From contig JAPLSA010000017.1 in assembly GCA_026398815.1 (NCBI GenBank), positions 186,001 through 250,000 of the forward strand: a DNA stretch of 64,000 nt, given 5' to 3'. The stretch comes from Gammaproteobacteria bacterium. Its GTDB lineage: Bacteria; Pseudomonadota; Gammaproteobacteria; Nevskiales; Nevskiaceae. This document shows, piece by piece, positions 1-60,422 of the stretch (positions are counted from its first letter, which is position 1; every line of letters starts with the position of its first letter). A model generated the notes under the pieces. The model saw nothing but the letters and a program-made list of their open reading frames with translations, made no database searches and was not told the DNA's origin. Made by a program: the position numbers and the translations under genes.

Positions 1-2
1 CG

Positions 3-227
3 CGGCGCTACGGCGGCGTCTGCAGGCTGTGGATGAACGCGGCGGGCAACGGATTCCGTACCGGCGGACATCTGGCCGGGTTCGGCTGGGGGACAAACAG
101 CGGCGGCGGGTACTTGTCCGAAACGGCGTATACGCCTGGTAGCGATCTCACGCTGCAGATCCGCGCCCTCGGCGTGGTCGGCGAGATCGCGCGGCTCTGG
201 CGCTGGAAGCTGGTGGCCACCCGGTGA
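3..227 (+). CDS. C-terminal end of a phage structural protein (partial)
   Basis: The frame is already open at the left edge and ends at 227, so only about 74 residues of the C-terminus are visible. The protein is rich in Gly and Arg and shows no family motif I recognise. Its stop overlaps the GTG start of the PL7-like gene (GTGA, 224-227), so it belongs to the same tail operon. By position it is the gene before the lyase in a Mu/P2-like tail module. That is inference from context only, and the true start lies outside the window. Confidence 0.55.
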   Translation, partial: RRYGGVCRLWMNAAGNGFRTGGHLAGFGWGTNSGGGYLSETAYTPGSDLTLQIRALGVVGEIARLWRWKLVATR

Positions 228-1201
228 CGCGCTTCATCCGCACGCTGATCCGAGTACCGCCGACGTCGGTGCCCACCGCGCCGGCCGACATCCTCGACCT
301 CAGCAACTTCGACCTGGCATTGCCGGTGAGCGAGCCGATCGCCGCAGACAAGGTCGGTGGACCGTACGCGGGCGGTGAGCTCAAGTACTCGAACGCCAGC
401 GCTGCCGATATCGCGCAGTCCGACTGCTGGCAAAGCATCTTCCCGATCGGCCGGCTGACCAACGAGTGGTTCAAGGTGTCGCTCGGCCCGGACAACGTCT
501 GGGAAGTGCCCTGCAAAGCGCCGGTGTTCGGTTCTGTCAGCAACGCATTCGAGGGTTCCGATCACACGCGGACCGAGTGCCGAAGCCGGCTGAAGGGCAG
601 CGCACCAGCCAGCCCAAAGGGCGAGGTCCTGCAGGCCGACGGGGCCCGGCTGCGCGGTACGTGCCGGCCGATGCGGTGGCCGGACAACGATGCGAACGGC
701 CGCCCTGCGAGCGGCGCCAGCGGCACCATCAGCCACAACCTGACGGTCTGCCAGATTCACGATCTCAGCCTGGTGTTCGTGATCGTGCTGCTGCGCAAGA
801 AGACCAATGGGCTGGGCCGCATCGAGTTCACCAGCCGCAATGTCGACCAGAGCGCACGCCCATCGGTCGTGCTGCATGACGACGTTCCGCTGGAATCGTT
901 GCTGGATTACCAGCTGGTCTGGGGGCCCGACGCCAACCTGTACTGGCGCAGCCGCGTGAGCCTGTGGAACGGCAGCAGCTTCGGCGGCTACGGTGCATGG
1001 AACGAGCAGGTCATTCCCTGCGACCCCGGCTGGGCGAACAGGCCGCAGTATTTCAAGGCGTTCGCGTATCACGGGACCGGCCCCGAGTGGTCCACGGACT
1101 ACCTGCGTGGCGCGGTCGTCAACGGCGTACTGCCCGCTGACCAGGTCACCGACTACATCCAGGTGAACTACCGGTTCATCGCAGTGGACCGCGCGCCGTG
1201 A
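224..1201 (+). CDS. Alginate lyase-like protein, polysaccharide lyase family 7 type, in phage tail operon
   Basis: The 325-residue protein looks like a PL7 alginate lyase, an enzyme that cleaves alginate by beta-elimination. Three short blocks support this in the right order. RTECR (116-120) corresponds to the family's R-T/S-E-x-R strand. QIHD (177-180) corresponds to the Q-I/V-H block that supplies the catalytic His. YFKAFAYH (276-283) corresponds to the YFKAG-x-Y block that supplies the catalytic Tyr. The N-terminal DLSNFDLALPV (25-35) also matches the usual start of the domain. There is no signal peptide, as expected for a virion part. The GTG start overlaps the upstream stop and its own stop overlaps the next GTG, so it is fully embedded in the tail operon, just before the baseplate spike gene. 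It is probably a tail-associated depolymerase; substrate and activity are inferred. Confidence 0.72.
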   Translation: MTRFIRTLIRVPPTSVPTAPADILDLSNFDLALPVSEPIAADKVGGPYAGGELKYSNASAADIAQSDCWQSIFPIGRLTNEWFKVSLGPDNVWEVPCKAPVFGSVSNAFEGSDHTRTECRSRLKGSAPASPKGEVLQADGARLRGTCRPMRWPDNDANGRPASGASGTISHNLTVCQIHDLSLVFVIVLLRKKTNGLGRIEFTSRNVDQSARPSVVLHDDVPLESLLDYQLVWGPDANLYWRSRVSLWNGSSFGGYGAWNEQVIPCDPGWANRPQYFKAFAYHGTGPEWSTDYLRGAVVNGVLPADQVTDYIQVNYRFIAVDRAP

Positions 1202-1770
1202 GCCCGCTGCTGAACGCCATCCAGGCGGCCCAGCGCCCGCTGCTGCGCCGGCTGCGCGCGCTGGCCAGCCGCGCCACCATTGCCCGTGTCGACGACGCAC
1301 CGCAGCTGCAGCAGGTGCAGGTCACCGTGATGGCGGGCGAGCGTCTGACGGGTGTTCAGCGGCTGCAGTACTTCGGTCACAGCGCCGTGCCGCCGGCCGG
1401 CAGCACCTGCCTGCTGGTGTCGATCGCCGGCAGCAGGACGCATTGCATCGTCATCGGCGGCGAACACGAATCCCGGCCACGCGATCTCGAACCGGGTGAG
1501 AGCCAGCTCTACAACAGCGGCGGCGATCACGTCTGGCTGAAAAACAGCGGTGAAATGGTCGTTCAAAGCCGCGTGCAGGTAACGCTCGACGCACCGCTCG
1601 TCCACTGCACCGGCGAGCTCACCGCCGATGGCCGCATCTACAGCGCCACGGCCGTGCAAGACCCGCTCGGCACGATGCAGGAGATGCGCGACCGCTACAA
1701 CGCGCATACCCACGGCGGGGTGCAGACGGGCGGTGCCAGCACCGGCACCACCAGCCTGGTCATGAACTGA
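1198..1770 (+). CDS. Phage baseplate assembly protein V / Mu gp45-like spike
   Basis: The protein has 190 residues and the layout of the Mu gp45/P2 gpV family, which forms the membrane-piercing spike under the tail tube. An OB-like N-terminal half is followed by a repetitive beta region, and the C-terminus contains the NAHTHGGVQTGG block typical of these spikes. That block has the H-x-H pattern often used to bind a metal at the spike tip. GTG start at 1198 overlaps the stop of the lyase gene (GTGA), and the stop overlaps the ATG of the gp46-like gene (TGATG). The following genes gp46, gp47 and gp48 are in Mu order, which fixes its identity. Confidence 0.85.
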   Translation: MSPLLNAIQAAQRPLLRRLRALASRATIARVDDAPQLQQVQVTVMAGERLTGVQRLQYFGHSAVPPAGSTCLLVSIAGSRTHCIVIGGEHESRPRDLEPGESQLYNSGGDHVWLKNSGEMVVQSRVQVTLDAPLVHCTGELTADGRIYSATAVQDPLGTMQEMRDRYNAHTHGGVQTGGASTGTTSLVMN

Positions 1771-2309
1771 TGGCCGATCTCGCGCTACTGCCGATCGCCG
1801 CCGACCTCGATGCCGGCATCGGCCTCGACCTCGTCGACGGCGATCTCGCTATCGATGATGGGCTGCGCAGCGCCGTCACCATCAGCCTGTTCACGGACCG
1901 CGAGGCGGATGGCGCGGACCGCCGGGGCTGGTGGGGCGATGCGCTGACGCCGGGGCAGGACCGCATCGGCAGCCTGCTGTGGCAGCTGCAGCGGCGCAAC
2001 GAGAGCCCCGCGCTGCTGACGGATGCCAAGCGTCACACCGAGGCCGCGCTGCGCTGGCTGATCGACGACGGCGTAGCCCGCGCAGTCACCGCCACGGCCT
2101 CGTTTCCGGCGCGTGGCCGGCTCGACATGCAGGTCGAGATCGAGCGCCCGAACGGCACGCGCGAGCTGATCCGCTTTGCGGACATCTGGGCGGCGTCGCT
2201 GAGCCCCTACCAGAACCGCGTCGTCTCCGAGCGCCTGCTGGCGCTGCAGCAGCTGGCGGCCGACTGGACGTACATCGCACAAGTTCTCTACCCGCAGGTT
2301 CACGCATGA
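1770..2309 (+). CDS. Phage GP46-like baseplate protein (Mu gp46 / P2 gpW family)
   Basis: The protein has 179 residues. Its N-terminal half has the family pattern of an acidic segment followed by D-G-L-R-S-A-V and then a R-G-W-W-G-D block, seen in Mu gp46 and P2 gpW/gp25-like wedge proteins that join the spike to the baseplate. It sits directly after the spike gene with a one-base overlap and ends in an ATGA overlap with the next gene. In Mu, gp47 would follow directly; here two extra genes intervene. No odd features in the protein itself. Confidence 0.82.
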   Translation: MADLALLPIAADLDAGIGLDLVDGDLAIDDGLRSAVTISLFTDREADGADRRGWWGDALTPGQDRIGSLLWQLQRRNESPALLTDAKRHTEAALRWLIDDGVARAVTATASFPARGRLDMQVEIERPNGTRELIRFADIWAASLSPYQNRVVSERLLALQQLAADWTYIAQVLYPQVHA

Positions 2310-2734
2310 GCGCAACGACCGAAGCCGAGCTGCAACAAGCCGCGACCACCACGCGGCTGATGGTGGAGATCATGGCCGCCGTCGCCCAGGGCGGGCCGAC
2401 GCAGACCGTCAACAACGGCCAGGTCGATCTGCCGACGCTCGCGAAGTTCTTCGCGGACGCACAGGCGCAGGTGAATGCCGCCGTCGCTGTCATCGTTGCC
2501 ACGCCGACCGGCGGACAGAACCCAGCGCCGATCATCCCCAGCGACACCGCTGTACTCGCCGGCCTGGTCGGCGGCCTGGAGTTCATCACCGGCGGCATGG
2601 TGGTGATGGAGTTCAGCAACGGCCAGGTCATCACGCGCACCTTTGCGCCGGGCGAGTTCTATCCGAACAACCCGAGCCGCGTTCGGGCCACCGGCACGGA
2701 TGTCGGCATCCAGATCATCGGCTACTTCATCTGA
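2306..2734 (+). CDS. Small phage tail protein of unknown function
   Basis: The 142-residue product starts at an ATG inside the ATGA overlap with the gp46-like gene. Residues 1-60 are helical and contain the segment VDLPTLAKFFADAQAQVNAA. Residues about 80-142 are beta-rich and end in IQIIGYFI. A helical N-terminus with a small C-terminal beta domain would suit a trimeric fibre or chaperone piece, perhaps acting with the following 1111-residue protein, whose ATG overlaps its stop by one base. I do not recognise the family. Its place between gp46 and gp47, next to the large lyase protein, suggests it came in together with that protein. Confidence 0.6.
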   Translation: MSATTEAELQQAATTTRLMVEIMAAVAQGGPTQTVNNGQVDLPTLAKFFADAQAQVNAAVAVIVATPTGGQNPAPIIPSDTAVLAGLVGGLEFITGGMVVMEFSNGQVITRTFAPGEFYPNNPSRVRATGTDVGIQIIGYFI

Positions 2735-5700
2735 TGATCCGCACCACCACGCCCAACCGCAGCAACATTCGCCTGCAGGCGGATTACCGCCGCAACCGCG
2801 CATTCGTCGCCGGCCTGCGCAGTTCGGCATCGCCGCTGGCCGGGCTGATCTGCGCACGCGCAGCGGCGGCCACGGCGCAGATGGCCAACGGCACCACGGT
2901 CACGTTCGGCAGCAACGTGCTGCGCGCGGTCGATCGCGGCGCAGTCGTCGAGCGTCCCGCGACGCAGTTGATGACCAACCCGTCACTGGCCGGGGCTGAA
3001 GGCGGCTCGCCGGGCAAGGTGCCGACTGGCTGGCGTCTGCCTGCCGGCTCGGTGCTGCTGTCCGTCGCCTTGATCACGGTCAACGGCCTGCCCGGCATCA
3101 CGGTCGAGCTCAGCGCCGTCAACGCGTCGGCAACGGCCGCAGGGCTGACGCTGAATCTGGAACCGGCGGCCGGCATCGCCGTGCCGGCCAGCCGGCGTGC
3201 GGTGTTCAGCGCCAGTACGTCGGTGGTGTCCGCGAGCAATGTGGGTGATGTCAGCACGCGCCTGATCGGCCGCAACAGCAGCGGCACCGGTGTGGGCGAC
3301 CAGGGGCGCGGCACGGTACCGGCCGGCAACCCGGCCCCCATCGTCACCGCTCCCGCAATCGACGACTCGGCCGTGGCGCTGTTCCCGGTGCTGACCTGGT
3401 CGGTGGCCGCACTCAGCACCGGCATCCTCAAGTTCACGCTGATCGCGCCGCAGGTCACCGAAGGCAGCAACCCCACCACCTTCATTCCGCGTTCGCCGCC
3501 GGCGGAGAGCCGCGAGAACCGCTACCCGAACCCCGGCCTCACCGGGGCCGCCGCCGGCACGCCCGGCACGCCGCCCACGTACTGGTCGAACGCGACGATG
3601 ACCAGCAGCCGCATCCTGGCGGTCAACGGTGACGGCAGTATCGACATCGAACTGAGCGCCACCGCTGGCGCCAGTGCCGCGATCCCGGCCTATCGGCTCA
3701 ACGTGCCGCCGCCGGGCGGCCCGGCCGGGCTGATCGCTGCCGCCGCTGGGCAGACCTGGGAAGCGTCGGTCGAAGCGCAGGTGCTGTCCGGCCCGGCAGA
3801 CGCCAACCCGCGCTTGAACTTCACGGCGCGCAATAGCAGCGGCAGCACCATCAGCGGCTTCAATACGTCGGCGAGCTTCGTGTCGACAACGTCGCTGGCA
3901 TCGGTCGGCCGGCGTTTCGAGTCGCTGCCGGATGGCGTAGCCGGTCTGCAGATGCAGATCCTGCTGTCGATCCCGGCTGGCGAAACCCGCACCGTGCAGC
4001 TGCGCATCCGCGCGCCGCGATGCGACCTGATCACGCTCGTCGCCGGCAGCGGCAGCGCCGTCCGTGAGCAGGACGTGGTCAGCTGGGCCAACCCCAGCGT
4101 GTTCGCGGGGCCGAGCACGGTCATCATCGAAGCCGAGATGGCCGCGCTGGATGCCGGCGCCACCCTGCTCGCGCTGGCGTTCGGCGGCGGGCACCGCCTG
4201 CGCCTGGTCGCGGGCGACTATATCGGCGTCATCGTCACATCGCCCGGCGGCCCGCCGGTATCGGCGCTGGCCCCGATCTTCGCGCCGCCTGGCGTGATCC
4301 GCCTGGCGCTTTCCTATGCCAACGGCCAGGTCAACATCGCGTTCAGCGATGCCTGCGACGGCGGCGCGGCCTCGCTCAGCGTGCCCGGCCTCGATGTCGG
4401 CACGGTCACCGGTGCCTGGTTCGGCTCAGATGCCGGCGCCAACGGCATGACCAGCGCGCTGCGCAGCATCGACATCCGCAGCGGCGCGCGGCCGGCCAGC
4501 GACCTGCGCCAGCGGACGCGTGCGGGCTGGTTCGCGCGGACGATGGTCGCTCCGATCGCCGGCCTGCGCTCGCCCGATCTCGCCAGCGTGCCGCCGTACG
4601 AGCCGCCAGCGAACATCGTCGTCGGCCCGTCGATGACCTACAGCTGGATCGGCAACCGCTACTGGAAGCGCTCCAACGGCGGCGCGCCGATGTCCGATCA
4701 CCTGCCGCACGCCAACTCGGTCGGCTCCATCGAAGGCAGCCCGCGCGCAATCCTGGTCATCAACAACGACGCATCCGCGACCCTCACCATCGATTCGCTG
4801 GGCGGCAACATCTACGCGCCGGCCGACGAGGTGCCGTACCTGCTGCCACCGGTACCGCAGATCGTCGTCGCGGCGCAGAAGCGCCTGTTCATTCAGAGCG
4901 ATGGCTACGACGGCCCGACCGCCGAGTACGTCACCGGCAATGACAACTGGTGGTACGTCGAGCGTGACAACGACCTGATCAACCTGCAGCAGGCGTACTC
5001 GTTCCCGTCGGTCTACGGGCCGATCAACACGGAACTGAACGCCTCCCGCGCCGTGCTGTACCCGCCGGCCTCGTCTGCCTACAACGCGGACATCGGCCCG
5101 TGCCGGCAGATGAGCGCCTACGCGGTGGCCGCCGCCAACCGCTGGGTCTACTACCGCTCGGCCTACGACGCCGCCCGCGCCATGCGCACGCTGCGGGACG
5201 CCTGTGCCGCCGACTACTGGCGGATCTCGCTGCCGCCGAAGACCACCATCACCCAGCTGAAAACGCAGATCACGTCCACCGGCATGGCGTATCTGCAGAT
5301 CCGCGATGCCGGCGTCGGCACGGCGCAGGACCATGCTGTCATCCGCGAATGGTTTCGCGATAGAACCGAGCAAACGATCGCGTTCTACGACGCCGAAGCA
5401 GCGGCGGGCACCGGCACCGCGCGCGGCAATCACGTCTATGCCGCAGCGCTGGCCTGCGCCACCGCCGCCGAGATTCTCGACCGGGCCGACTACTACCGCT
5501 GGGCGGTCGGCAAGTTCGAGCTGGCCATGCAGGACTCCGCCTCGATCCCCGGCAACACCGGCTCGATGCTGCTGGAGCTGCGCCGCGCAGATAAAGCAGT
5601 GCAGTACCACTGCCTGGCGATGACCCAGCTGATGTCGCTGGCTGAATCGCTGATCCGGATGGGCTACGACGCATACGGCTACCTCGGTGGGCAGCTGATC

Positions 5701-6069
5701 AAGTGCGTCAACTTCGTCGCGGCAACCATCGACAACCCGAGCCTGATGACCGCCGAGCAGCAGCGGCTCGTCAACTACGGCGGCGCGTGGGCTGTTGGCA
5801 TGGTCGTGGCCACACAGCAGAGCCTGGGCTTCAGCCGCGACATCGATCCGATCACCGGCGAGCAGCTCTTCAACGAGTCCCGCGTCGCCTGGCTGTACTA
5901 CGCCTGCGGCCGGCTCACCGACCAGCAGATGCCATCACGGCCGATCTGGGTGCCGCGCGCCGAGGTCTACGACAACAACTACAACGGCAGCACCGGCGGC
6001 GCCTACGCCACGATCCGGCCGTTCCCCGGCATCAACGTGCCGCCACCCCCACCGCCGGTGATCGCCTGA
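2734..6069 (+). CDS. Large phage tail protein with C-terminal PL5-like alginate lyase domain
   Basis: This 1111-residue protein is modular. Residues about 80-245 and 264-430 are two related beta domains that begin with near-identical blocks (NPSLAGAEGGSPG and NPGLTGAAAGTPG), probably carbohydrate-binding or fibre-shaft modules. Residues about 445-585 look like a concanavalin/LamG-type beta sandwich. Residues about 760-1060 are alpha-helical and resemble alginate lyase PL5 (AlgL/A1-III). GNH (N899, H900) and R951...Y958 reproduce the family's N-H pair and R-x6-Y pair; the N-to-R spacing is 52 here against 48 in AlgL. There is no signal peptide. A proline run ends the protein. It overlaps its neighbours by one base on each side, between gp46 and gp47. 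It is best read as a receptor-binding/depolymerase tail protein acting on alginate-like polysaccharide; activity is inferred. Confidence 0.72.
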   Translation: MIRTTTPNRSNIRLQADYRRNRAFVAGLRSSASPLAGLICARAAAATAQMANGTTVTFGSNVLRAVDRGAVVERPATQLMTNPSLAGAEGGSPGKVPTGWRLPAGSVLLSVALITVNGLPGITVELSAVNASATAAGLTLNLEPAAGIAVPASRRAVFSASTSVVSASNVGDVSTRLIGRNSSGTGVGDQGRGTVPAGNPAPIVTAPAIDDSAVALFPVLTWSVAALSTGILKFTLIAPQVTEGSNPTTFIPRSPPAESRENRYPNPGLTGAAAGTPGTPPTYWSNATMTSSRILAVNGDGSIDIELSATAGASAAIPAYRLNVPPPGGPAGLIAAAAGQTWEASVEAQVLSGPADANPRLNFTARNSSGSTISGFNTSASFVSTTSLASVGRRFESLPDGVAGLQMQILLSIPAGETRTVQLRIRAPRCDLITLVAGSGSAVREQDVVSWANPSVFAGPSTVIIEAEMAALDAGATLLALAFGGGHRLRLVAGDYIGVIVTSPGGPPVSALAPIFAPPGVIRLALSYANGQVNIAFSDACDGGAASLSVPGLDVGTVTGAWFGSDAGANGMTSALRSIDIRSGARPASDLRQRTRAGWFARTMVAPIAGLRSPDLASVPPYEPPANIVVGPSMTYSWIGNRYWKRSNGGAPMSDHLPHANSVGSIEGSPRAILVINNDASATLTIDSLGGNIYAPADEVPYLLPPVPQIVVAAQKRLFIQSDGYDGPTAEYVTGNDNWWYVERDNDLINLQQAYSFPSVYGPINTELNASRAVLYPPASSAYNADIGPCRQMSAYAVAAANRWVYYRSAYDAARAMRTLRDACAADYWRISLPPKTTITQLKTQITSTGMAYLQIRDAGVGTAQDHAVIREWFRDRTEQTIAFYDAEAAAGTGTARGNHVYAAALACATAAEILDRADYYRWAVGKFELAMQDSASIPGNTGSMLLELRRADKAVQYHCLAMTQLMSLAESLIRMGYDAYGYLGGQLIKCVNFVAATIDNPSLMTAEQQRLVNYGGAWAVGMVVATQQSLGFSRDIDPITGEQLFNESRVAWLYYACGRLTDQQMPSRPIWVPRAEVYDNNYNGSTGGAYATIRPFPGINVPPPPPPVIA

Positions 6070-7127
6070 TGCCGCTCTCACGCCCCACGTTGGGCGCGCT
6101 CAACGCGCGCCTGCAGGCCGACATCCGCAGCAGCATCGAGGGCGCGCAGCCGGCCCTGCGCCGCTCCGTCCTCGGCGTGCTGGCCAGCGCGCTGGCGGCG
6201 GCCGTGCACGCGCTGTACGGATACATCGCGGATCGCGCGAAAGCAGCTGTACCGCAGACGGCTGTCGATGATGACCTCGACGACTGGGCCAGCCTGTGGA
6301 AGATCGGCCGCAGGCCCGCGTCGATCGCCACCGGCACGGTCGTGATCACCGGCGATGCGGGTGCTGAAGTGCCAGCAAACACGTCACTGCAGAGCACGCG
6401 CGGCGTCGAGTACCGCACGCTCACGGCCGTCATCATCGCAGCCGGCGGCACGGTGGCGGCTGGCGTCTACGCCGTACTGCCTGGCACCGCCGGCAACCAG
6501 CCGGGCAGTGCAGTGCTCGCCTTCGTCAGCCCCGCCATCGGCGTCGACGTGCTCGCGACCGTCGATGCCGGCGGCATCAACGGCGGTGCCGGCGTCGAAG
6601 ACGACGAAGCCCTGCGCGCCCGGCTGCGCGAACGCATCAGCCAGCCCGGCCACGGCGGCAATGCCGCCGACTACCGGCGCTGGGCGCTGGACGTGCCCGG
6701 CGTCGACCGCGCATGGGTGTTCCCGCTGTACCTCGGCGATGGCAACGTCCGGGTCTACATCGCCGATGACGACTACACGGGCAGCACGCTGGCCAGCCCG
6801 GCCACCGTCGCCGCCGCCCAGGTCGCGCTCGATGCGGCGCGGCCGGTGACGGCCGATGTCGACGTCGTCGCGCCGAACCGCCAGCCGGTCAACGTGCGCG
6901 TCACTCTCGGCCCGGACACGCCTGCAACCCGCGCCGCCGTCACGGCCGCGCTGGCGGATCTGTTCGCCCGCGAAGCGGCACCCGAGGGCACCATCCCGCG
7001 CACCCACATCGCCCAGGCGATCAGCGACGCTGCCGGCGAGTACGACCACAACCTGATCCTGCCGGCCGGCAACGTCACCGCCGGGGCGGGTGCCATCCTG
7101 ACGCTGGGCACGCTGACGTGGTCATGA
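6069..7127 (+). CDS. Baseplate J-like protein (Mu gp47 / P2 gpJ family)
   Basis: The protein has 352 residues and begins at the ATG overlapping the previous stop (TGATG, 6067-6071). It has the baseplate_J layout: a helical N-terminus with a DDDLDDWASLWKI block, a beta-rich middle with G-x-x-V-P-x-N-T-x-L (phage J signature 'evpants'), then the GG-G-x-x-x-E-D-D-E-A-L-R-A-R-L segment with the nearby PGHGGNAADYRRWAL block, all well-known family hallmarks. It forms the baseplate wedge. Its stop overlaps the ATG of the gp48-like gene. Confidence 0.9.
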   Translation: MPLSRPTLGALNARLQADIRSSIEGAQPALRRSVLGVLASALAAAVHALYGYIADRAKAAVPQTAVDDDLDDWASLWKIGRRPASIATGTVVITGDAGAEVPANTSLQSTRGVEYRTLTAVIIAAGGTVAAGVYAVLPGTAGNQPGSAVLAFVSPAIGVDVLATVDAGGINGGAGVEDDEALRARLRERISQPGHGGNAADYRRWALDVPGVDRAWVFPLYLGDGNVRVYIADDDYTGSTLASPATVAAAQVALDAARPVTADVDVVAPNRQPVNVRVTLGPDTPATRAAVTAALADLFAREAAPEGTIPRTHIAQAISDAAGEYDHNLILPAGNVTAGAGAILTLGTLTWS

Positions 7128-7657
7128 CCGCAGCGGACTACGCCGCCCAGCTCGCCGCGCTGCTGCCGCTGGGCAATGCCTGGCGCGCCGGACCAGACAC
7201 GCTGCTCGGCCGCCTGCTGCTGGCGCTCGGCACCGAGCTCGCCCGCGTTCACGCCCGCGCCAACACGCTGCGCCTCGAGGCCGACCCGCGCAGCACCATC
7301 GAGCTGCTGTCGGAATGGGAAGCCATCGCCGGTCTGCCGGACCCCTGCGTCAACGTGGCCCAGACCGTCGACCAGCGCCGCGCCGCCCTGGTTGCGCGCC
7401 TGGTCGGCACCGGCGGTGCGTCGCGGGCGTACTTCATCAGCGTCGCAGCGGCGTACGGCTACACCGTCACCGTCGAAGAGCCGGCATCGCACACCTGGCG
7501 ATTGCGCTCCGCTGAAGTCGTCGGCGTCACCCGGTTCCGCGCCGGCCTGAGCACGGCCGGCGACCCGCTGGCCAGCTTCGGAAACGAGGCGTTCGAATGC
7601 CTTTTCAACCGCATTAAACCCGCCCACACGGCCCTGCTGTTCGCCTACGGAACCTGA
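7124..7657 (+). CDS. DUF2313 / YmfQ-like tail protein (Mu gp48, P2 gpI position)
   Basis: The 177-residue protein contains the YmfQ/DUF2313 pattern: an N-terminal LLPLGNAWRAGP block, a LLSEWEAIAGLPD block and a C-terminal FNRIKPAHTALLFAY block. The family closes the baseplate wedge and precedes the tail fibre gene. The start is placed at the ATG at 7124, which gives the ATGA overlap seen throughout this operon; an in-frame GTG at 7118 is possible. The next gene starts four bases after the stop. Confidence 0.85.
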   Translation: MTAADYAAQLAALLPLGNAWRAGPDTLLGRLLLALGTELARVHARANTLRLEADPRSTIELLSEWEAIAGLPDPCVNVAQTVDQRRAALVARLVGTGGASRAYFISVAAAYGYTVTVEEPASHTWRLRSAEVVGVTRFRAGLSTAGDPLASFGNEAFECLFNRIKPAHTALLFAYGT

Positions 7658-7660
7658 TCA

Positions 7661-8287
7661 ATGGACCGCATCAACCATCCCACCGCGACCCCCGGCCGCC
7701 AGTTCACAGAAGGCGACGCGGGCTCCGGTACGCCAGCCACAGTCGTGACGGCGCAGTTCCTGAACGGCATGCAGGAAGAGCTGGTCGGCGTTATCGAGGC
7801 GGCAGGGCTGTCGCCCAACGCCTCCCTGGTCAACCAGCTGCGGCGAGCCATCTTCGAGCTCAGCTACCCGGTCGGCAGCTACTACTGGACGCGCCGCACG
7901 GAGGTGACCGCATCGCAGATCCTCGGCTTCGGCACATGGGTGCAGCTGCCGCCCGGCCGGGTGCCGGTGACGCTGAACATCAGCGAGACCGAGTTCAACG
8001 CGATCGGCAAGACCGGCGGTGCCAAGACGCATCAGCTGACGCCCGCCCAGATTCCGGCTCACAACCACCGGCCGCCGAACGACGCCACCGGCACGGGCTA
8101 CGGCTTCATCCCCACCTCGATCTCGGGCCAAGACGTGACGCCGAGCAACTTCGACACCAGCGCATCGGGCGGCGAGCCGAATATCCGCAACCAGCCGGTC
8201 GCCCCGGTCACGGTCGGCGCCGACGAAGCCCACAACAACCTGCAGCCGTACGTCGTCGTCGGCCTCGTCTGGTACCGGATCAGCTGA
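7661..8287 (+). CDS. Phage tail fibre protein with collar-type C-terminus
   Basis: The protein has 208 residues. The N-terminus (DRINHPTATPGRQFTEGD) is typical of short Mu/P2-type fibres that attach to the baseplate. The C-terminal part contains GGAKTHQLTPAQIPAHNH, the tail-collar motif, and ends with NNLQPYVVVGLVWYRI, a common ending of these fibres. It follows the gp48-like gene by three bases and is the last gene of the tail module. No assembly chaperone gene follows before the host gene at 8425, so this could be the prophage's right end. Confidence 0.85.
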   Translation: MDRINHPTATPGRQFTEGDAGSGTPATVVTAQFLNGMQEELVGVIEAAGLSPNASLVNQLRRAIFELSYPVGSYYWTRRTEVTASQILGFGTWVQLPPGRVPVTLNISETEFNAIGKTGGAKTHQLTPAQIPAHNHRPPNDATGTGYGFIPTSISGQDVTPSNFDTSASGGEPNIRNQPVAPVTVGADEAHNNLQPYVVVGLVWYRIS

Positions 8288-8424
8288 CCTGCAAGGCTGT
8301 TGCAGTTCCGATTAAATGCTGTTTCGCAGGCGTCTCAAATCAACCTGTCAACCGTCTCAGACCAATTCGCGCCCTACAGCGGTGCCAGAATCCGCTTCTG
8401 GCTTCCCTGTCCCCCGACTGCCCG
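8288..8424 (+). other. Noncoding gap at the prophage-host boundary
   Basis: About 137 bases separate the last phage gene from the response regulator. The first part (about 8288-8345) is less GC-rich than the flanks. I see no convincing integrase site, terminator with a T run, or transposase end. The prophage right end, and the promoter of the downstream regulator, should both lie here, but I cannot place them exactly. Confidence 0.4.
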
Positions 8425-9774
8425 ATGACCGCTTCCCGCCGCGTGCTGATCGTCGATGACGAACCGAACATGCGCCGCGTGCTGGAAATCATGCTCGGCC
8501 GCCGCGGCTACCGCACCGATGCCGCCGCCGACGGCGAAGAGGCCTGGGAGCGGCTGCGCGATGGCGGCTACGACCTGGTCTGCAGCGATCTGCGGATGCC
8601 GCGCCTGGATGGCATCGAACTGCTGCGGCGCATGCGCGACCAGGGCCTGGACCTGCCGCTGATCCTGATGACCGCGCACGGCAGCCTCGACAGCGCCGTG
8701 GAAGCGCTGCGTCTCGGCGCCTGCGACTACCTGCTGCGGCCGTTCGACGTCGAAGCGCTGGAACTGGCGATCGACCGCGTGTTCGCCACCCGTGGCCTGC
8801 TGCGCCAGAACGCCTATCTGCGCGACGAGGCGGCGCGGCCGGTGCAGTCCGGCCTGCTCGGCCGCAGCGCGCCGATGGTGGCGCTGCGCGAGCAGGTGGC
8901 GAAGGTCGGCCCGACCCGGGCCAGCGTGCTGCTGACCGGCGAAACCGGCACCGGCAAGGAAGTGGTGGCGCGCGCGATCCACCAGGCATCTGAGCGGCGC
9001 GACGCGTTGTTCGTCGCGGTGAACTGCGCGGCGATTCCGGCCGACATGCTGGAAAGCGAGCTGTTCGGCCACGAGAAAGGCGCGTTCACCGGCGCGCAAA
9101 AGCAGCGCATCGGCAAGTTCGAGCTGGCCCAGGGCGGCACGCTGTTCCTCGACGAGCTGGGCGAGATGCCGATCGCGCTGCAGGCCAAGCTGCTGCGAGC
9201 GATCGAGGCCGGCGAGATCAGCCGGCTCGGCGGCAATGATCCGGTGACGCTCGACGTGCGGCTGATCGCCGCCACCAACCGCGCGCCGCGCGAGGCGATC
9301 CGCGACGGCCGGCTGCGCGAGGACCTGTACTTCCGGCTCAACGTGTTCGCGCTGGAACTGCCGCCGCTGCGGGCGCGGCGCGAGGATGTCGGCCTGCTGT
9401 TCGCGCATTTCCTCGGCCAGCCGGAAACCGGGCTGCCGGTGGCCGTGCTCGATCACCTGGCCAGCTATGGCTGGCCCGGCAATGTCCGCGAGCTGCGCAA
9501 CATGGCCGAGCGGGCACGCATTCTCGCCGGCGCCTCGGCGCTGGCGCCTCGGCATTTCCCGCTGCCGGCCGAGCCGGCCATCGCCGAGGCACCGTCGACC
9601 GCGGCGCTGCCGGACGATCTGGCGCTCGACCCGGCGGTGGAAACGCTGGAGCGCCGCTACCTGGAGGCGGCGCTGAAGCTCAGCGGTGGCAACAAGGCGC
9701 GCGCGGCGCAGAAGCTCGGCATCAGCGAGCGGACCATCTGGTACAAGCTGAAGAAGTACGGCCTCGGCGACTGA
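8425..9774 (+). CDS. Sigma-54-dependent response regulator, NtrC family
   Basis: The 449-residue protein has a receiver domain (about 5-120, D11, D12 and phosphoacceptor D55), an AAA+ sigma-54 interaction domain and a Fis-type helix-turn-helix near the C-terminus ([19 protein letters not shown]). Walker A is GETGTGKE and the GAFTGA loop that contacts sigma-54 is intact, so it should activate transcription by RNA polymerase-sigma-54. No histidine kinase gene is adjacent, so its partner is unknown. The gene stands alone between the prophage and the convergent PilZ gene. Confidence 0.92.
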
Positions 9775-54246: not shown

Positions 54247-57075
54247 GTGAGCGCATCGGTACCCGTCCTGCTGCTGCCGGCCTCGGCCGATTTCATCGGC
54301 GAGGCCGCCACCCGGCTGGTCTCGGCCCACGCCGACCGGCTGCCCGACCTTTCCGGCCTGACCGTGGTCATCGCTCACCCGGCGATGCAGCGGCCACTGC
54401 GGGTGGCACTGGCCGAGGCGGCGGGCGGCGCCGTGCTGCTGCCGCGCATCCTCGGCGCCCGGCAGCTGGCCGCCGAGGCCCTGCCCGACACCGCCGCCAC
54501 GCCGCTGCCGGAACTGGAATGCGTGCTGCGGCTGGCCGAGGCGCTATCGCGTTTCCGCTCGATCTTTCCCGACCAGGACCCGCTGCGAGTCGCCGAAGCG
54601 CTGTACGCGATCTTCGACGAGCTGGTGCTGAACGCCGCGCGCCTGCCCGATGACGAGGCCGCGTTCGCCGAACGGCTGCGCGAAGCCTACGGCGCGCAGC
54701 TGATCGAACCGCTGTCGCGGGAAGCGCAGATCGTCCACCGCCTGTGGCGGGCCTACATCGAGGACATCGGCGAACGCGCGCCGGCCTTCGCCTATCTCGC
54801 CGGGCTGACCGCCGCGCTCGACCAGCTCCCGGATGACGCGCCGCTGTACTGGCTCGGCGCCGACGCGCTGGCCCAGGCGGAAGCGGTGCGCCTGCGGCCG
54901 CTGATTGCCGCCGGCCGCCTGCAGTTCTGGACCCAGGGCCGCAGCCAGGGTCGCGACGGCGCGGCAGCGCGCGCCTTGTTGGAAGCGCTCGGCCAGCCGC
55001 TGCCAGCGCCGGACAGCAGCACCGCGCCGCCGCGCCAGGTGCTGCTCGATCTCGCCTTCGCCGACGATGCCCGCCCGGCCCGCGAGCGGGCCGCCGAGGT
55101 GCCGCCGGCCGCCGCCCGCGGCCTGCGCATCGTCGCCGCTGCCCATGCCGAACACGAGGCGCGGATCGTCGACCTGGCGGTGCGCGAGGCGATCCTGAAC
55201 GGCGCGCGCCGGGTGGCGATCGTCAGCCCCGACCGCCGGCTGGCGCGCCGGGTCCGGGCACTGCTCGAACGCGCCGGGCTGACGCTCGAAGACCGGGTCG
55301 GCTGGGCGCTGTCGACCAGCCGCGCGGCGGCGGCGCTGGCCAGCTGGCTCGACTGCCTGGCCACCGGCTTCCACTTCCGGCCGCTGCTCGATCTGCTCAA
55401 GTGCGGCTTCTTCCACATCGACGAAGGCGATGACGGCCACGAGTCCGGCCCGGAGGCGGAAGCGGTGCTGGCCGGCCTGCTGGCACGCGCGCTGCTGCAG
55501 GGGCGCAGCGACGACAGCCGGCCGATCGCCGGGCTCGACGCGCTGCAGGCGCTGGTCGCCGGCCGCTATCCGGCCGCCTTCGAACGCCTGCGCAGCGCCG
55601 CCGCCGCGCTGCCACTGGCCGACGCCGGCCGGTCCCGCAGCGACTGGGCCAGCAGCCTGCGCGACAGCCTGAAGCGGCTCGGCCTGGCAGCGGCGTTCGC
55701 CGAAGACGATGCCGGCAGCCAGGTGTTCGCGGTGCTGAACGCGCTGGACGCGGCGATCGCCGGCTCGGCGATCCGCCTGCGCTGGCAGGAATTCCGCGCG
55801 CTGCTCGACCGCCGGCTCGAACAGGCGACCTTCCGGCCGTCGAATCTGGCCCAGCCGCAGGTGGCGCTGTACACGCTGGAGCAGACCCAGGGCCTGTCCG
55901 CCGACTGCCTGATCCTGGCCTCCGCCACCCGTGCCCAGCTGCCCGGCAGCGCGCCCGGCGAAGCCTTCTTCAACCAGGGCGTACGCCGCGAACTGGGCCT
56001 GCCGACCTGGCCACAGCGGCAGAGCCTGAGCCTGGCGCGACTGCGCCGGGTGCTGGAAGCCGCGCCGCAGGTCGTCATCACCCACGCCGGCAGCGATGGC
56101 GAGCCGCCGCAGCTGTCGCCGTGGCTCGATGCGCTGGACGCCTTCGCCCGCGCGGCCGGCGCAACGCCGCTGCAGGAACCGAGGCTGGCCGCGCAAGCCC
56201 TGCTGGCTGCCGCCGAAGTCACCGATCCCCAGGCCCAGCGCCTGCCGGCCGCGCCGACACCGCCTGCCGAGGTTGTGCCGGACCCGGCGCTGATCGACTG
56301 GCTACTCAGCGCCAGCGGCCATCAGGCGCTGATCGACTGCCCGTACCGCTGGTACGCCAGCCGGCTGCTGCGCCTGTCGGCCGACAACCCTGCCGATCAG
56401 GACCCCGGCCGCGCCGACTACGGCCAGCGGGTGCATCGCATCCTGCAGGCCTTCCACGCCGAGATCGACCCAGCGCTGCCGCCGCCCTATGCCGGCGGCT
56501 TCACGGCCGATGACGCCCCGGCGATCGTCGCCCGGCTCGCGGCACTGGCCGACGCCGTGTTCGCCGCCGATCTCGCCGCGCGGCCGCTGGCCCAGGTCTG
56601 GCGGCAGGATTTCGAGCGCCTGACGCCGTTCCTCGCCGGCGAGCTGATCGCGGCCGGCGGCGGGCCGGTGGAAGTCGAGATCGACCGCCAGGCAGCCGTT
56701 GCCGGCTGGACCCTGCATGGCCGGCTGGACCGGCTGCAGCGCAGCGCCGGCGGCACGGCGGTGGTCGACTACAAGACCGGCGCCGTGCCGAGACGCGAGG
56801 ACGTGCTGGCCGGCGAATCGGTGCAGCTGCCGCATTACGCGCTGGAGGCCGGCGACGTGCAGCGCGTCGCCTACTGGGACTTGAAGAAGCTGGCGGCGGT
56901 GGCGATCGAAGGCGAGGAACTGGCCGACCTGGCCGCCGGCGTCGAGACCCGCCTGGCGACGATGCGCGGACAGCTGGTCGACGGCGCCGTGCTGCACGCG
57001 CAGGGCGACCGGCGAACCTGCGAGCGCTGCGATTTCAGCGGCGTCTGCCGCCGCGACGGCTGGCAGGCGCCATGA
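54247..57075 (+). CDS. addB: AddB-like PD-(D/E)XK exonuclease subunit
   Basis: The 942-residue protein is the AddB-type partner of a helicase-nuclease that processes double-strand breaks. The N-terminal helicase-like part has no Walker A. The C-terminal nuclease has LHGRLDRL, VVDYKTG and QLPHYAL (Q-x3-Y), and an iron-sulfur cysteine set: one in LIDCPYRWYA and three in CERCDFSGVC. GTG start at 54247. ATGA overlap with the helicase gene. Confidence 0.82.
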   Translation: MSASVPVLLLPASADFIGEAATRLVSAHADRLPDLSGLTVVIAHPAMQRPLRVALAEAAGGAVLLPRILGARQLAAEALPDTAATPLPELECVLRLAEALSRFRSIFPDQDPLRVAEALYAIFDELVLNAARLPDDEAAFAERLREAYGAQLIEPLSREAQIVHRLWRAYIEDIGERAPAFAYLAGLTAALDQLPDDAPLYWLGADALAQAEAVRLRPLIAAGRLQFWTQGRSQGRDGAAARALLEALGQPLPAPDSSTAPPRQVLLDLAFADDARPARERAAEVPPAAARGLRIVAAAHAEHEARIVDLAVREAILNGARRVAIVSPDRRLARRVRALLERAGLTLEDRVGWALSTSRAAAALASWLDCLATGFHFRPLLDLLKCGFFHIDEGDDGHESGPEAEAVLAGLLARALLQGRSDDSRPIAGLDALQALVAGRYPAAFERLRSAAAALPLADAGRSRSDWASSLRDSLKRLGLAAAFAEDDAGSQVFAVLNALDAAIAGSAIRLRWQEFRALLDRRLEQATFRPSNLAQPQVALYTLEQTQGLSADCLILASATRAQLPGSAPGEAFFNQGVRRELGLPTWPQRQSLSLARLRRVLEAAPQVVITHAGSDGEPPQLSPWLDALDAFARAAGATPLQEPRLAAQALLAAAEVTDPQAQRLPAAPTPPAEVVPDPALIDWLLSASGHQALIDCPYRWYASRLLRLSADNPADQDPGRADYGQRVHRILQAFHAEIDPALPPPYAGGFTADDAPAIVARLAALADAVFAADLAARPLAQVWRQDFERLTPFLAGELIAAGGGPVEVEIDRQAAVAGWTLHGRLDRLQRSAGGTAVVDYKTGAVPRREDVLAGESVQLPHYALEAGDVQRVAYWDLKKLAAVAIEGEELADLAAGVETRLATMRGQLVDGAVLHAQGDRRTCERCDFSGVCRRDGWQAP

Positions 57076-60000
57076 ACATCGCTCTTGATCCGCAGCGTTC
57101 GGTCAGCGTTTCGGCGTCCGCCGGCAGCGGCAAGACCTGGCAGCTGGTGTCGCGCATCGTGCGGCTGCTGCTCGATGGCGCCGAGCCCGGTGGCATCCTG
57201 GCGCTGACCTTCACCCGCAAGGCCGCCGCCGAGATGCGCGAGCGCGTCGAGGCCCGCCTGCGCGAGCTGGCCTATGCCGATGACAGCACGCTCGACGCGC
57301 TGCTGCGGCAGATCGACCTGGCGCCGACCGACCCTCTCCGCGAGCGCGCCCGCCGCCTGCACGAAACGCTGTTGCACGCGCCGTTCGCGCTGCGCGCGCA
57401 GACCCTGCACGTGTTCTGCCACGAGCTGCTGAGCCGCTTTCCGCTGGAAGCCGGCGTGCCGGCCGGCTACACGCTGACCGAGAACGAGCGCGAGCTTCGC
57501 GACACCGCCGTGGCCGCGCTGATGCAGCGCATCCGCCAGCAGCCGGACGGCCCGGAGGCGCGGGCGCTGGCCGTCTGGATCGCCGGCGGCGCCAGCGAGG
57601 CGACGATCCTCGGCTGGCTGCACGGCTTCATCGAGCGGCGCAGCGACTGGTGGGCCTACACCCACGGCTGGACCGTCGATGCCGTCGCCGAAGCGATCGA
57701 CCGGCTGGCCGGGCAGCTCGGCATCGACCCGGACGACGACCGTCCGCTGACCGCCGCGCTCGACCACCCGGACGTCGACCGGGCGATCACCGAGCTGCAG
57801 GCCCGGCTGCTGGCCGCCGCCGGGGTCGGCCGGCTGAAGGCGGAGATGGTGGCGCCGGCCCTTGCCGCCGGCGGCGATGAGCGCTTCATGACGCTGCGCA
57901 GCGCGCTGCTGACCAGCGACGGCAGCCGCCGCAGCCTGAGCCAGAAGAAAGCGATCAGCGACAGCGCCTGGCAGTCCTTCCTGCATGCCTACGGTTTTTT
58001 GGCCGACCAGATCGACGCGATCGAGGCCGAGCGCCGCCGCCGCGAGACCTGGCTGCGCACGGCCGCCGGCTACCGGCTCGGCGACCGCCTGCTGCAGGAA
58101 CTGGCGGCCGAGCTGCAGCGCACCCAGCAGCTGACCTTCGCCGACCTGGAGTGGCGCAGCTACCGGCTGCTGACCGATTCCGAGCAGGCCGACTGGCTGC
58201 GCTACAAGCTCGACCAGCGCATCGATCACCTGATGCTCGACGAGTTCCAGGACACCAATCCGACCCAGTGGCAGCTGCTGCGGCCGATCCTCGACGAGAT
58301 GAGCGCCAGCGATCCGGAACGGGTCCGCACCGCCTTCATCGTCGGCGACGCCAAGCAGAGCATCTACGGCTTCCGGCGCGCCAATCCGGAGCTGCTCGGC
58401 AGCGCCGCGCAGTTCCTGCAGCAGCAGCTCGGCGGCGCGCCGATGCCGCTGAACGATTCGCGGCGCAGCGCGCCGGCGGTGATCGCCTTCGTCAACGCGC
58501 TGTTCAGCGGCCCGGATGGCGAGACCATCGCCTTCCAGCCGCACGGCACGCACTTGAAGTCCGACTGGGGCGCCGTCGAGGTCGCGCCGCTGGTGCTGGC
58601 CGACGCGCCGACCGCCGAAGCGGACGACGACGAAGCGCTGCGCAATCCGCTGACCACGCCGCGCCGGGTCGCCGAGGATCTGCGCCTGCAGCGCGAAGCC
58701 GATGGCGTCGCCACGCGGATCAGGGCGCTGGTCGCCGCCCGGCTGCCGGTGTCCGAACACGGCCGGGCGCGGCCGCTGGACTGGGGCGATGTGATGATCC
58801 TGGCCCGCCAGCGCACCCATCTGCCGGTGATCGAGCAGGCGCTGGCTGCGGCCGGCATTCCGTTCATCGGCGCCAGCAAGGGCACGCTGCTCGGCACGCT
58901 GCCGGTGCGCGACCTGATGGCGCTGCTGCGCTTTCTCGACGTGCCGCAGCGCGATCTGGACCTGGCGCAGCTGCTGCGCTCGCCGCTGTTCGAGGCCAGT
59001 GACACCGATCTGATGCAGCTGGCCAGCGCTCGCGACCGGGGCCCGCACTGGTGGGCGCGGCTGCTGGCGCTGGATGGCGACGGCCAGGCCAGCCCGGCGC
59101 TGCAGCGCGCCGCCGCGCTGATCGGCCGCTGGCAGCGCGAAGCGCGCCGGCTGCCGGCGCACGATCTGCTCGACCGCATCGCCTACGACACCGACCTGAT
59201 CCGCCGCTACGAACAGGCGCTGCCGAACGACGGCCGGGTGCGCGCCAATGTCGGGGCCTTCCTGCAACTGGTGCTCGACGCCGACCAGGGCCGCTATCCG
59301 ACGCTGGGCCGGCTCAACCAGAAGCTCGAACAGCTGGCGGATGCCGCCCGCGATGCGCCCAGCGAAGCGCCGCCGGCCGCCAGCGACGGCCAGGTGCGGG
59401 TGCTGACCATCCACGCCGCCAAGGGTCTCGAAGCGCCGGCCGTGTTCCTGGTCAACAGCGCGCCGGCCGCCAACCACCGGCACGGCGGCTGGCAGGTCGA
59501 ATGGCCCTCGGACGCCGCCGCCCCCAGCCATTTCCTGCTGGCCACCAACGCCGATGCCCGCGACGCGCTCAGCGAGCAGCTGATCGACGCCCGCCGCGCC
59601 CGCGAGGCGCGCGAAGCGCTGAACCTGCTGTACGTCGCCGTGACCCGCGCCCGCCAGTACCTGTTCGTGTCGGCTTTCGAGAGCAGCAAGGCCGGGCCGG
59701 AACCGAGCTGGCACCAGCGCTGCCTGTCCGCCGCGCAGGCGCTGCCGGCCAGCCCTGAGCCGCTGCCCGGCGCGCCGGACGGCGTGACTGCGGCCCGTCA
59801 CGGGCAATTCCCGGTGGTCGACGATCCGCCCGCGACCGCGTCGCCGACCACGCTCGATCCGCGCCTGCGCAGCCCGCTGCGGCCGGCGCCGACGCCGATC
59901 TGGACGCCGTCGCAAAGCGGCGATGCCCGCGATCCGGACGCCGTCACCCGCGGCCGGGCGATCCACTGGCTGTTGCAGCAGTCCGCCAACGGCCGGCGCC

Positions 60001-60422
60001 CGCTGCCCGAGACCCTGGCGGCGAAACTGGCGGCAGTGCTCGGCGAGGACATCGACGCCAGCCTGGTGCCCGGCTGGCAGGCAGAGGCCGACGCCGTGCT
60101 GGCGGCCGCGCCGCTGTCGATACTGTTCGACCGGACGCAGCTGCGGCGCGCCTGGAACGAGGTGCCGGTGCAGTGGCAGGCCGCCGATGGCAGCGCCCGC
60201 CACGGCGTGCTCGACCGGCTGGTCGACGACGGCCACGGGCTGACGATCATCGACTACAAGACCGCACCCAGGCCGAATGCGACGCTGCTGGTCGACCGCT
60301 ACCGCGAGCAGCTCGCCGCCTATGTCGATGCGATCGGCAAGGTCTTCCCGGGCCGGCCGATCCGCGCCGGACTGCTGCTGACCGCCCGCCGCGAATGGTT
60401 GCCGGTGCTGGCACGCGGCTGA
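57072..60422 (+). CDS. addA: AddA-like UvrD helicase-nuclease subunit
   Basis: The 1116-residue protein has an SF1A helicase core: Walker A ASAGSGKT (K21), LTFTRKAAAEM, LDEFQDTN (Walker B), VGDAKQSIYGFRRA and LLYVAVTRAR. A C-terminal PD-(D/E)XK nuclease (VLDRL, IIDYKT, YREQLAAY) follows. With AddB it resects breaks for RecA. AddAB here takes the place that RecBCD has in enteric bacteria; whether RecBCD also exists cannot be seen. Confidence 0.85.
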   Translation: MNIALDPQRSVSVSASAGSGKTWQLVSRIVRLLLDGAEPGGILALTFTRKAAAEMRERVEARLRELAYADDSTLDALLRQIDLAPTDPLRERARRLHETLLHAPFALRAQTLHVFCHELLSRFPLEAGVPAGYTLTENERELRDTAVAALMQRIRQQPDGPEARALAVWIAGGASEATILGWLHGFIERRSDWWAYTHGWTVDAVAEAIDRLAGQLGIDPDDDRPLTAALDHPDVDRAITELQARLLAAAGVGRLKAEMVAPALAAGGDERFMTLRSALLTSDGSRRSLSQKKAISDSAWQSFLHAYGFLADQIDAIEAERRRRETWLRTAAGYRLGDRLLQELAAELQRTQQLTFADLEWRSYRLLTDSEQADWLRYKLDQRIDHLMLDEFQDTNPTQWQLLRPILDEMSASDPERVRTAFIVGDAKQSIYGFRRANPELLGSAAQFLQQQLGGAPMPLNDSRRSAPAVIAFVNALFSGPDGETIAFQPHGTHLKSDWGAVEVAPLVLADAPTAEADDDEALRNPLTTPRRVAEDLRLQREADGVATRIRALVAARLPVSEHGRARPLDWGDVMILARQRTHLPVIEQALAAAGIPFIGASKGTLLGTLPVRDLMALLRFLDVPQRDLDLAQLLRSPLFEASDTDLMQLASARDRGPHWWARLLALDGDGQASPALQRAAALIGRWQREARRLPAHDLLDRIAYDTDLIRRYEQALPNDGRVRANVGAFLQLVLDADQGRYPTLGRLNQKLEQLADAARDAPSEAPPAASDGQVRVLTIHAAKGLEAPAVFLVNSAPAANHRHGGWQVEWPSDAAAPSHFLLATNADARDALSEQLIDARRAREAREALNLLYVAVTRARQYLFVSAFESSKAGPEPSWHQRCLSAAQALPASPEPLPGAPDGVTAARHGQFPVVDDPPATASPTTLDPRLRSPLRPAPTPIWTPSQSGDARDPDAVTRGRAIHWLLQQSANGRRPLPETLAAKLAAVLGEDIDASLVPGWQAEADAVLAAAPLSILFDRTQLRRAWNEVPVQWQAADGSARHGVLDRLVDDGHGLTIIDYKTAPRPNATLLVDRYREQLAAYVDAIGKVFPGRPIRAGLLLTARREWLPVLARG

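Follow-up and report, generated by a model that had tools for sequence, protein, structure and literature searches.

Alginate lyases have been reported for Pseudomonas phage PT6 and for a phage of Azotobacter vinelandii; the relevant sections of the sources give 'ND' in place of an accession for both enzymes, and the Azotobacter phage is called unsequenced (PMC5380687, PMC12772287). As in those cases, the locus described here is phage-borne and appears to be aimed at an alginate-coated host. A pair of lyases from two families, as found here, is not mentioned in those sections of the sources (PMC5380687, PMC12772287).

The window, by which we mean the whole stretch of 64,000 nucleotides analyzed (C23:186001-250000; genome of 4.30 Mb in 32 contigs), opens within a prophage of 39,114 bp (C23:155265-194378). 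The right-hand portion of this Mu-like prophage occupies positions 1-8378 of the window on the forward strand, the prophage start lying outside the window. Encoded upstream of the window are a Mu transposase, MuB, a terminase, a Mu portal, gpF, a head protease, the major head protein gpT and a contractile sheath. The prophage starts with TG and ends with CA, and GCGGT flanks it on both sides, the right copy of this 5-bp target duplication being located at 8379-8383. Judged from its genes and ends, the prophage looks like a complete temperate Mu-like phage, and the nearest relative of its portal among 50,697 phage records was less than 60% identical. The element has inserted into a sensor-kinase gene with Cache, HAMP and HisKA domains, at its 3' end (C23:153099-155321 and window 8378-9774); when the prophage flanks are joined, the frame continues into a kinase end of ordinary appearance, and the insertion alters the last residues of the kinase and parts it from an NtrC-type regulator. 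Elsewhere in the window, a PD-(D/E)XK nuclease gene adjoins a UvrD-helicase/nuclease gene (54247-60422), a make-up resembling AddAB.

The tail operon lies on the forward strand. The 3' end of a collagen-like fibre gene (3-227, an open frame whose gene starts upstream of the window; PF01391 5.2e-28 in the upstream part) is overlapped at its stop by the GTG start of a gene for a 325-aa PL7-related lyase (224-1201). This is followed by gp45, the baseplate spike (1198-1770; PF06890 5.6e-21, with the Apex motif PF18946 above cut-off), gp46, a baseplate wedge (1770-2309; PF07409 6.5e-27, phrog_180 2.4e-37), a small tail protein (2306-2734; phrog_12296 5.2e-7) and a 1111-aa PL5 tail protein (2734-6069). 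The run continues with gp47, baseplate J (6069-7127; PF04865 1.2e-63), gp48, a baseplate wedge (7118-7657; PF10076 1.4e-31), and a Gp10-type short fibre (7661-8287; PF21939 1.1e-19). Adsorption genes thus occupy two slots, the collagen-like fibre and PL7 gene between gp44 and gp45, and the small tail protein and PL5 gene between gp46 and gp47. A sequence-only reading of the window had placed PL7-like and PL5-like genes on either side of gp45-gp46, and this arrangement was borne out. Both genes are encoded in the tail gene run, as expected for virion-associated depolymerases. That they are cellular enzymes lying beside a phage by chance was rejected, since phage genes stand on both sides and the lyase starts overlap or touch their neighbors within the tail gene run.

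The C-terminal part of the PL5 tail protein matched PF05426 with an E-value of 4.2e-20 and 72.8 bits, well above the curated cut-off of 22.2, which all six tail PL5 proteins exceeded (52-82 bits). A phmmer search against the PDB matched alginate lyase A1-III (1hv6, 4.3e-7). In the alignments to PDB PL5 chains, N899 and R951 aligned to Asn and Arg, H900 to the Ala position of 4f10 (titled H192A), and Y958 to the Phe position of 4f13 (titled Y246F). The protein is a PL5 member that possesses the catalytic Asn, His, Arg and Tyr. These four residues are invariant in all six tail PL5 proteins, at 34-49% identity to the window's. An AlphaFold model built from six sequences (mean pLDDT 64.6, pTM 0.46) predicts a low-confidence N-terminus followed by beta-sandwich domains and a C-terminal PL5 domain, whose helices, at about residues 777 to 1060 (5062-5913, the stretch that holds N899, H900, R951 and Y958 and aligns to A1-III), would form the alpha-helical toroid. 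Foldseek placed Smlt1473 (7fhu) first (E 7.5e-9, TM 0.70 by target, 3.4 Å), followed by PanPL, AlgL and A1-III, all at 15-22% identity to the characterized enzymes. With PL5 lyases as the best matches, the predicted toroid agrees with the fold proposed by the sequence-only reading, at the confidence of a model with a pLDDT of 64.6. Other matches were carbohydrate-binding modules, among them CBM40 with a fair TM of 0.56-0.61 by target and a CBM22 pair with a low TM of 0.30-0.33.

The window's PL7 protein scored 21.3 bits against PF08787 (E 2.6e-4), under the curated cut-off of 29.7, and we name it PL7-related because its own score falls short. Three tail relatives, 28-40% identical to it, lie above the cut-off (45.1, 31.0 and 49.1 bits). 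A phmmer search of the PDB with the single window protein gave zero matches at E up to 10, and a joint profile of the four tail PL7 proteins matched 12 PDB sequences with E-values of 1 or lower, the best being 1.3e-4; 11 of these are lyases of alginate or polyguluronate, and the remaining one is a glucuronan lyase. Residues R116, E118, R120, Q177, H179, K278 and Y282 are invariant in the four tail proteins. They belong to RxExR, QxH and K...Y, which we take to be the active-site motifs of PL7; all three are present and invariant in the four proteins, and the first and last aligned opposite 1uai in the profile search. The AlphaFold model was of low confidence (mean pLDDT 54.5), and its Foldseek matches were mostly lectin-like beta-sandwiches with low TM, an unspecific result; no PL7 chain was among the best 50 of 757 matches of this model. 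The putative jelly roll is assigned from the sequence profiles, not from the low-confidence model. The PL7 assignment of the sequence-only reading thus holds at the level of the family, supported by the relatives, the joint profile and the motifs, but with its own score under the cut-off the window protein can be called PL7-related only. As far as their sequences tell, the two unrelated lyase families proposed for one tail operon are both represented, each with its conserved active-site residues.

To place the pair in context, tail lyases were counted in related genomes, all of them metagenome-assembled as far as their titles tell. We name the host a Nevskia on grounds of kinship, as genomes related to it are placed in one genus with it. 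Full-length tail PL5 proteins numbered six in five genomes, the window's included (100 relatives; 18 Nevskia genomes), and scanning the GTDB species genomes by sequence pattern recovered the five remaining tail PL5 loci and none further. Profile A1 found four tail-type PL7 genes in the 18 Nevskia genomes, at 470 bits or more, all of them within 1.6 kb upstream of a tail PL5 gene on the same strand, at distances of 0 to about 1.5 kb. That every tail-type PL7 gene adjoins a tail-type PL5 gene in these 18 genomes exceeds chance. The pair is thus present at four of the six tail PL5 loci. One of the others (L025/L029) lies on a contig that ends inside gp45. At the Mu-like locus L024/L030 (L024:14042-17726), genes for a GDSL esterase and for a K1-lyase-C protein occupy the PL7 slot next to the PL5 gene; the genome G007 is the sole carrier without a PL7 above cut-off and its prophage has the esterase in the PL7 slot, a single case that may be chance. 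Three virion types carry the pair: Mu-like prophages (that of the window and L023; L023, like L024 and L025, was classed as Mu-like by its gp44-gp48 genes), a siphovirus-like prophage (L014/L012, with PHROGs for terminase, portal, head protease, tape measure, minor tail protein and central fibre J) and a podovirus-like prophage (L013, with PHROGs for head-tail adaptor/portal, major head protein and internal virion protein). The counts leave out a match in G034 (E 5e-4, a 67-aa frame with a stop), weak partial PL5 matches in G002, G021, G041, G050 and G059 and, for the 18 genomes, eleven PL7 loci scoring no more than 41 bits and five PL5 loci scoring no more than 38 bits. Beyond these genomes, profile A1 found the window's own gene only among 229 gammaproteobacterial genomes, tblastn with the window lyases and the L012 copies gave no match in 50,697 phage records, and short peptide patterns confirmed no relative in IMG/VR, a type of search that can miss distant relatives.

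Taken together, these data are probably best explained by a Mu-like Nevskia phage whose particle-borne PL7 and PL5 proteins cut through a coat of polyuronate during adsorption, with alginate as the most likely polymer. We infer that both proteins are catalytically active, that both are on the virion, and what their substrate and division of labour are. Both lyases would ride on the particle as part of the tail adsorption apparatus. PL5 enzymes act on mannuronate-rich stretches and PL7 enzymes on guluronate-containing stretches. The PL5 protein would accordingly cut the mannuronate-rich and the PL7 protein the guluronate-containing stretches of the polymer, and because the two families cut different stretches, an epimerized alginate could be opened by two complementary enzymes, letting the baseplate reach the cell surface. 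At L024, the GDSL esterase might, speculatively, deacetylate the polymer in the place of PL7.

The host genome encodes an alginate operon, transcribed in one direction (C26:38830-54617; L043:830-16617), with algD, alg8-like, alg44-like (PilZ plus HlyD), algK-like, algE, algG, algX, algL, algJ-like and algI-like genes and two further open frames between them; the epimerase AlgG and acetylation genes are thus included. Several of these names rest on Pfam domains and gene order, and AlgK, AlgG and AlgL gave strong NCBIfam matches that are yet under the equivalog cut-offs. AlgX was detected in six of the 18 Nevskia genomes and in three of the five tail-PL5 carriers, the window's among them, these three having PL5 matches adjoining it; it was not found in the other two carriers (G013 and G014, 95-96% complete). 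The association between AlgX and tail PL5 was not significant (three of six AlgX-positive versus two of 12 AlgX-negative genomes; p 0.27). Three further PL7 genes occur elsewhere in the window's genome, and PL7 genes outside tail loci in three of the four other carriers, with none in G007.

These distributions bear on the strongest competing view, namely that the pair attacks some other uronate-containing slime or capsule, a serious if unlikely alternative. The two carriers lacking a detected AlgX speak for it, as do the title of the best PL5 fold match, Smlt1473, as a multi-functional enzyme and the one glucuronan lyase among the 12 PDB sequences that the joint PL7 profile matched. It is weakened by the AlgX genes with adjoining PL5 matches in three carriers, the window's genome included, and by the 11 alginate or polyguluronate lyases in the same set of PDB matches.

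The place of the PL7 protein can also be read differently: it could be soluble, released on lysis or secreted, leaving the PL5 protein alone on the particle. The domain search recognized no virion-binding domain in this free-standing 325-aa protein, and the copy of the siphovirus-like prophage (L012:8259-8340) has, by eye, an N-terminus resembling a secretion signal. Such a stretch is absent, however, from the other three of the four tail copies, and the genomic context argues against a soluble enzyme, the gene lying inside the baseplate run right behind the fibre gene, and its start adjoining or overlapping the preceding stop codon at all four loci. We consider a soluble PL7 protein rather doubtful.

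Improbable, in our judgement, is that both proteins are degenerate lyases kept as lectins, binding without cutting. The low identity of the PL5 protein to characterized enzymes in the Foldseek comparison, the weak E-values of the PL7 profile and the carbohydrate-binding-like domains in the N-terminal part of the PL5 protein would fit such a role, but the seven PL7 residues are kept in all four proteins and the four PL5 residues in all six, despite the divergence of the sequences. Finally, a tailocin in place of a phage, an option that the sequence-only reading had left beside the phage and that the tail genes of the window, taken by themselves, might suggest, can be dismissed almost entirely, as head, packaging and replication genes (terminase, portal, gpF, head protease, gpT; transposase, MuB) lie just upstream in the same prophage, which also has its sheath gene, both ends and the target duplication. 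Of the earlier proposal that particles bore through alginate, the phage version is thus retained, backed by the lyase families, their active sites and the alginate operon of the host, and the tailocin version is dropped.

Returning to the putatively particle-borne pair, a comparison of the window with the Mu-like locus L023 showed that gp44, a 113-aa protein, gp45, gp46, gp47, gp48 and Gp10C are 64-92% identical, while the small tail protein (53%), the collagen fibre (42%), PL7 (34%) and PL5 (49-50%) are less so. The siphovirus-like and podovirus-like PL7 proteins are 63% identical to each other, and the PL5 protein of the window shows much the same identity to its podovirus-like counterpart (50%) as to that of L023 (49%). 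Since the backbone is 64-92% but the lyases only 34-50% identical, and PL5 is equally close to a podovirus-like copy, the lyase genes do not track the backbone, a pattern consistent with exchange or with rapid divergence. Moreover, the C-terminal 65-75 aa of the small tail protein recur in blastp, twice per protein, behind other N-termini at the siphovirus-like and podovirus-like loci, making this stretch a candidate adaptor. On balance we lean towards an alginate-penetration module of PL7 and PL5 that is exchanged among temperate Nevskia phages of differing virion architecture (contractile Mu-like, siphovirus-like and podovirus-like). It would dock to each virion through this shared small domain, fused to N-termini specific to the phage type, with one acidic host polymer selecting for this two-fold set of enzymes in phages that are unrelated. 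The data gave no support to a recent capture of lyases from the host itself, the E-values being weak in a very small search set: for frames around the genome's three other PL7 genes, 0.086 with the window's tail PL7 and 0.0028 at best with any of the four (L023), and for tail PL5 against host AlgL, 0.0079.

Among the literature matches listed, none could be recognized from its title or the opening of its abstract as a report on a Nevskia phage, on Nevskia alginate or on phage PL5/PL7; the material in PMC10507051 concerned bacterial genomes. Alginate lyases of phages are a known kind of enzyme; what looks new within the scope of our searches is the pair with its sequences, the host that carries it and its distribution. 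Such enzymes were reported decades ago, without an accession in the relevant parts of the review literature (PMC5380687, PMC12772287), and the present locus supplies the sequences of two such enzymes, together with active sites that are conserved and a host whose genome includes an alginate operon. With the pair recurring across three virion types of a single genus, it becomes directly testable whether an acidic mixed-block slime selects two complementary tail enzymes, and the pair itself is a natural candidate for biofilm-degrading enzymes.

The extra structural module of Alishewanella phage LSH1 differs from the one described here, its match 7dmk belonging to family PL6 and a rhamnogalacturonan lyase scoring almost equally in the part of the report concerned (PMC13243795). 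The PL5 lyases A1-III, AlgL, Smlt1473 and PanPL share with the window's protein the toroid, as modeled, and the catalytic Asn, His, Arg and Tyr, whereas here the PL5 fold is the C-terminal domain of a 1111-aa phage tail protein. The PL7 lyases 1uai, A1-II' and PA1167 share the profile match and the conserved residues; the proteins described here are distant from them and encoded in a tail operon, with the window protein alone under the Pfam cut-off. Mu-like phages have the transposase, MuB, Mu portal, gpT, gp45-gp48 and 5-bp duplication in common with the window's prophage. In Mu itself the fibres follow gp48, whereas in the window's prophage adsorption genes are placed between gp44 and gp45 and between gp46 and gp47.
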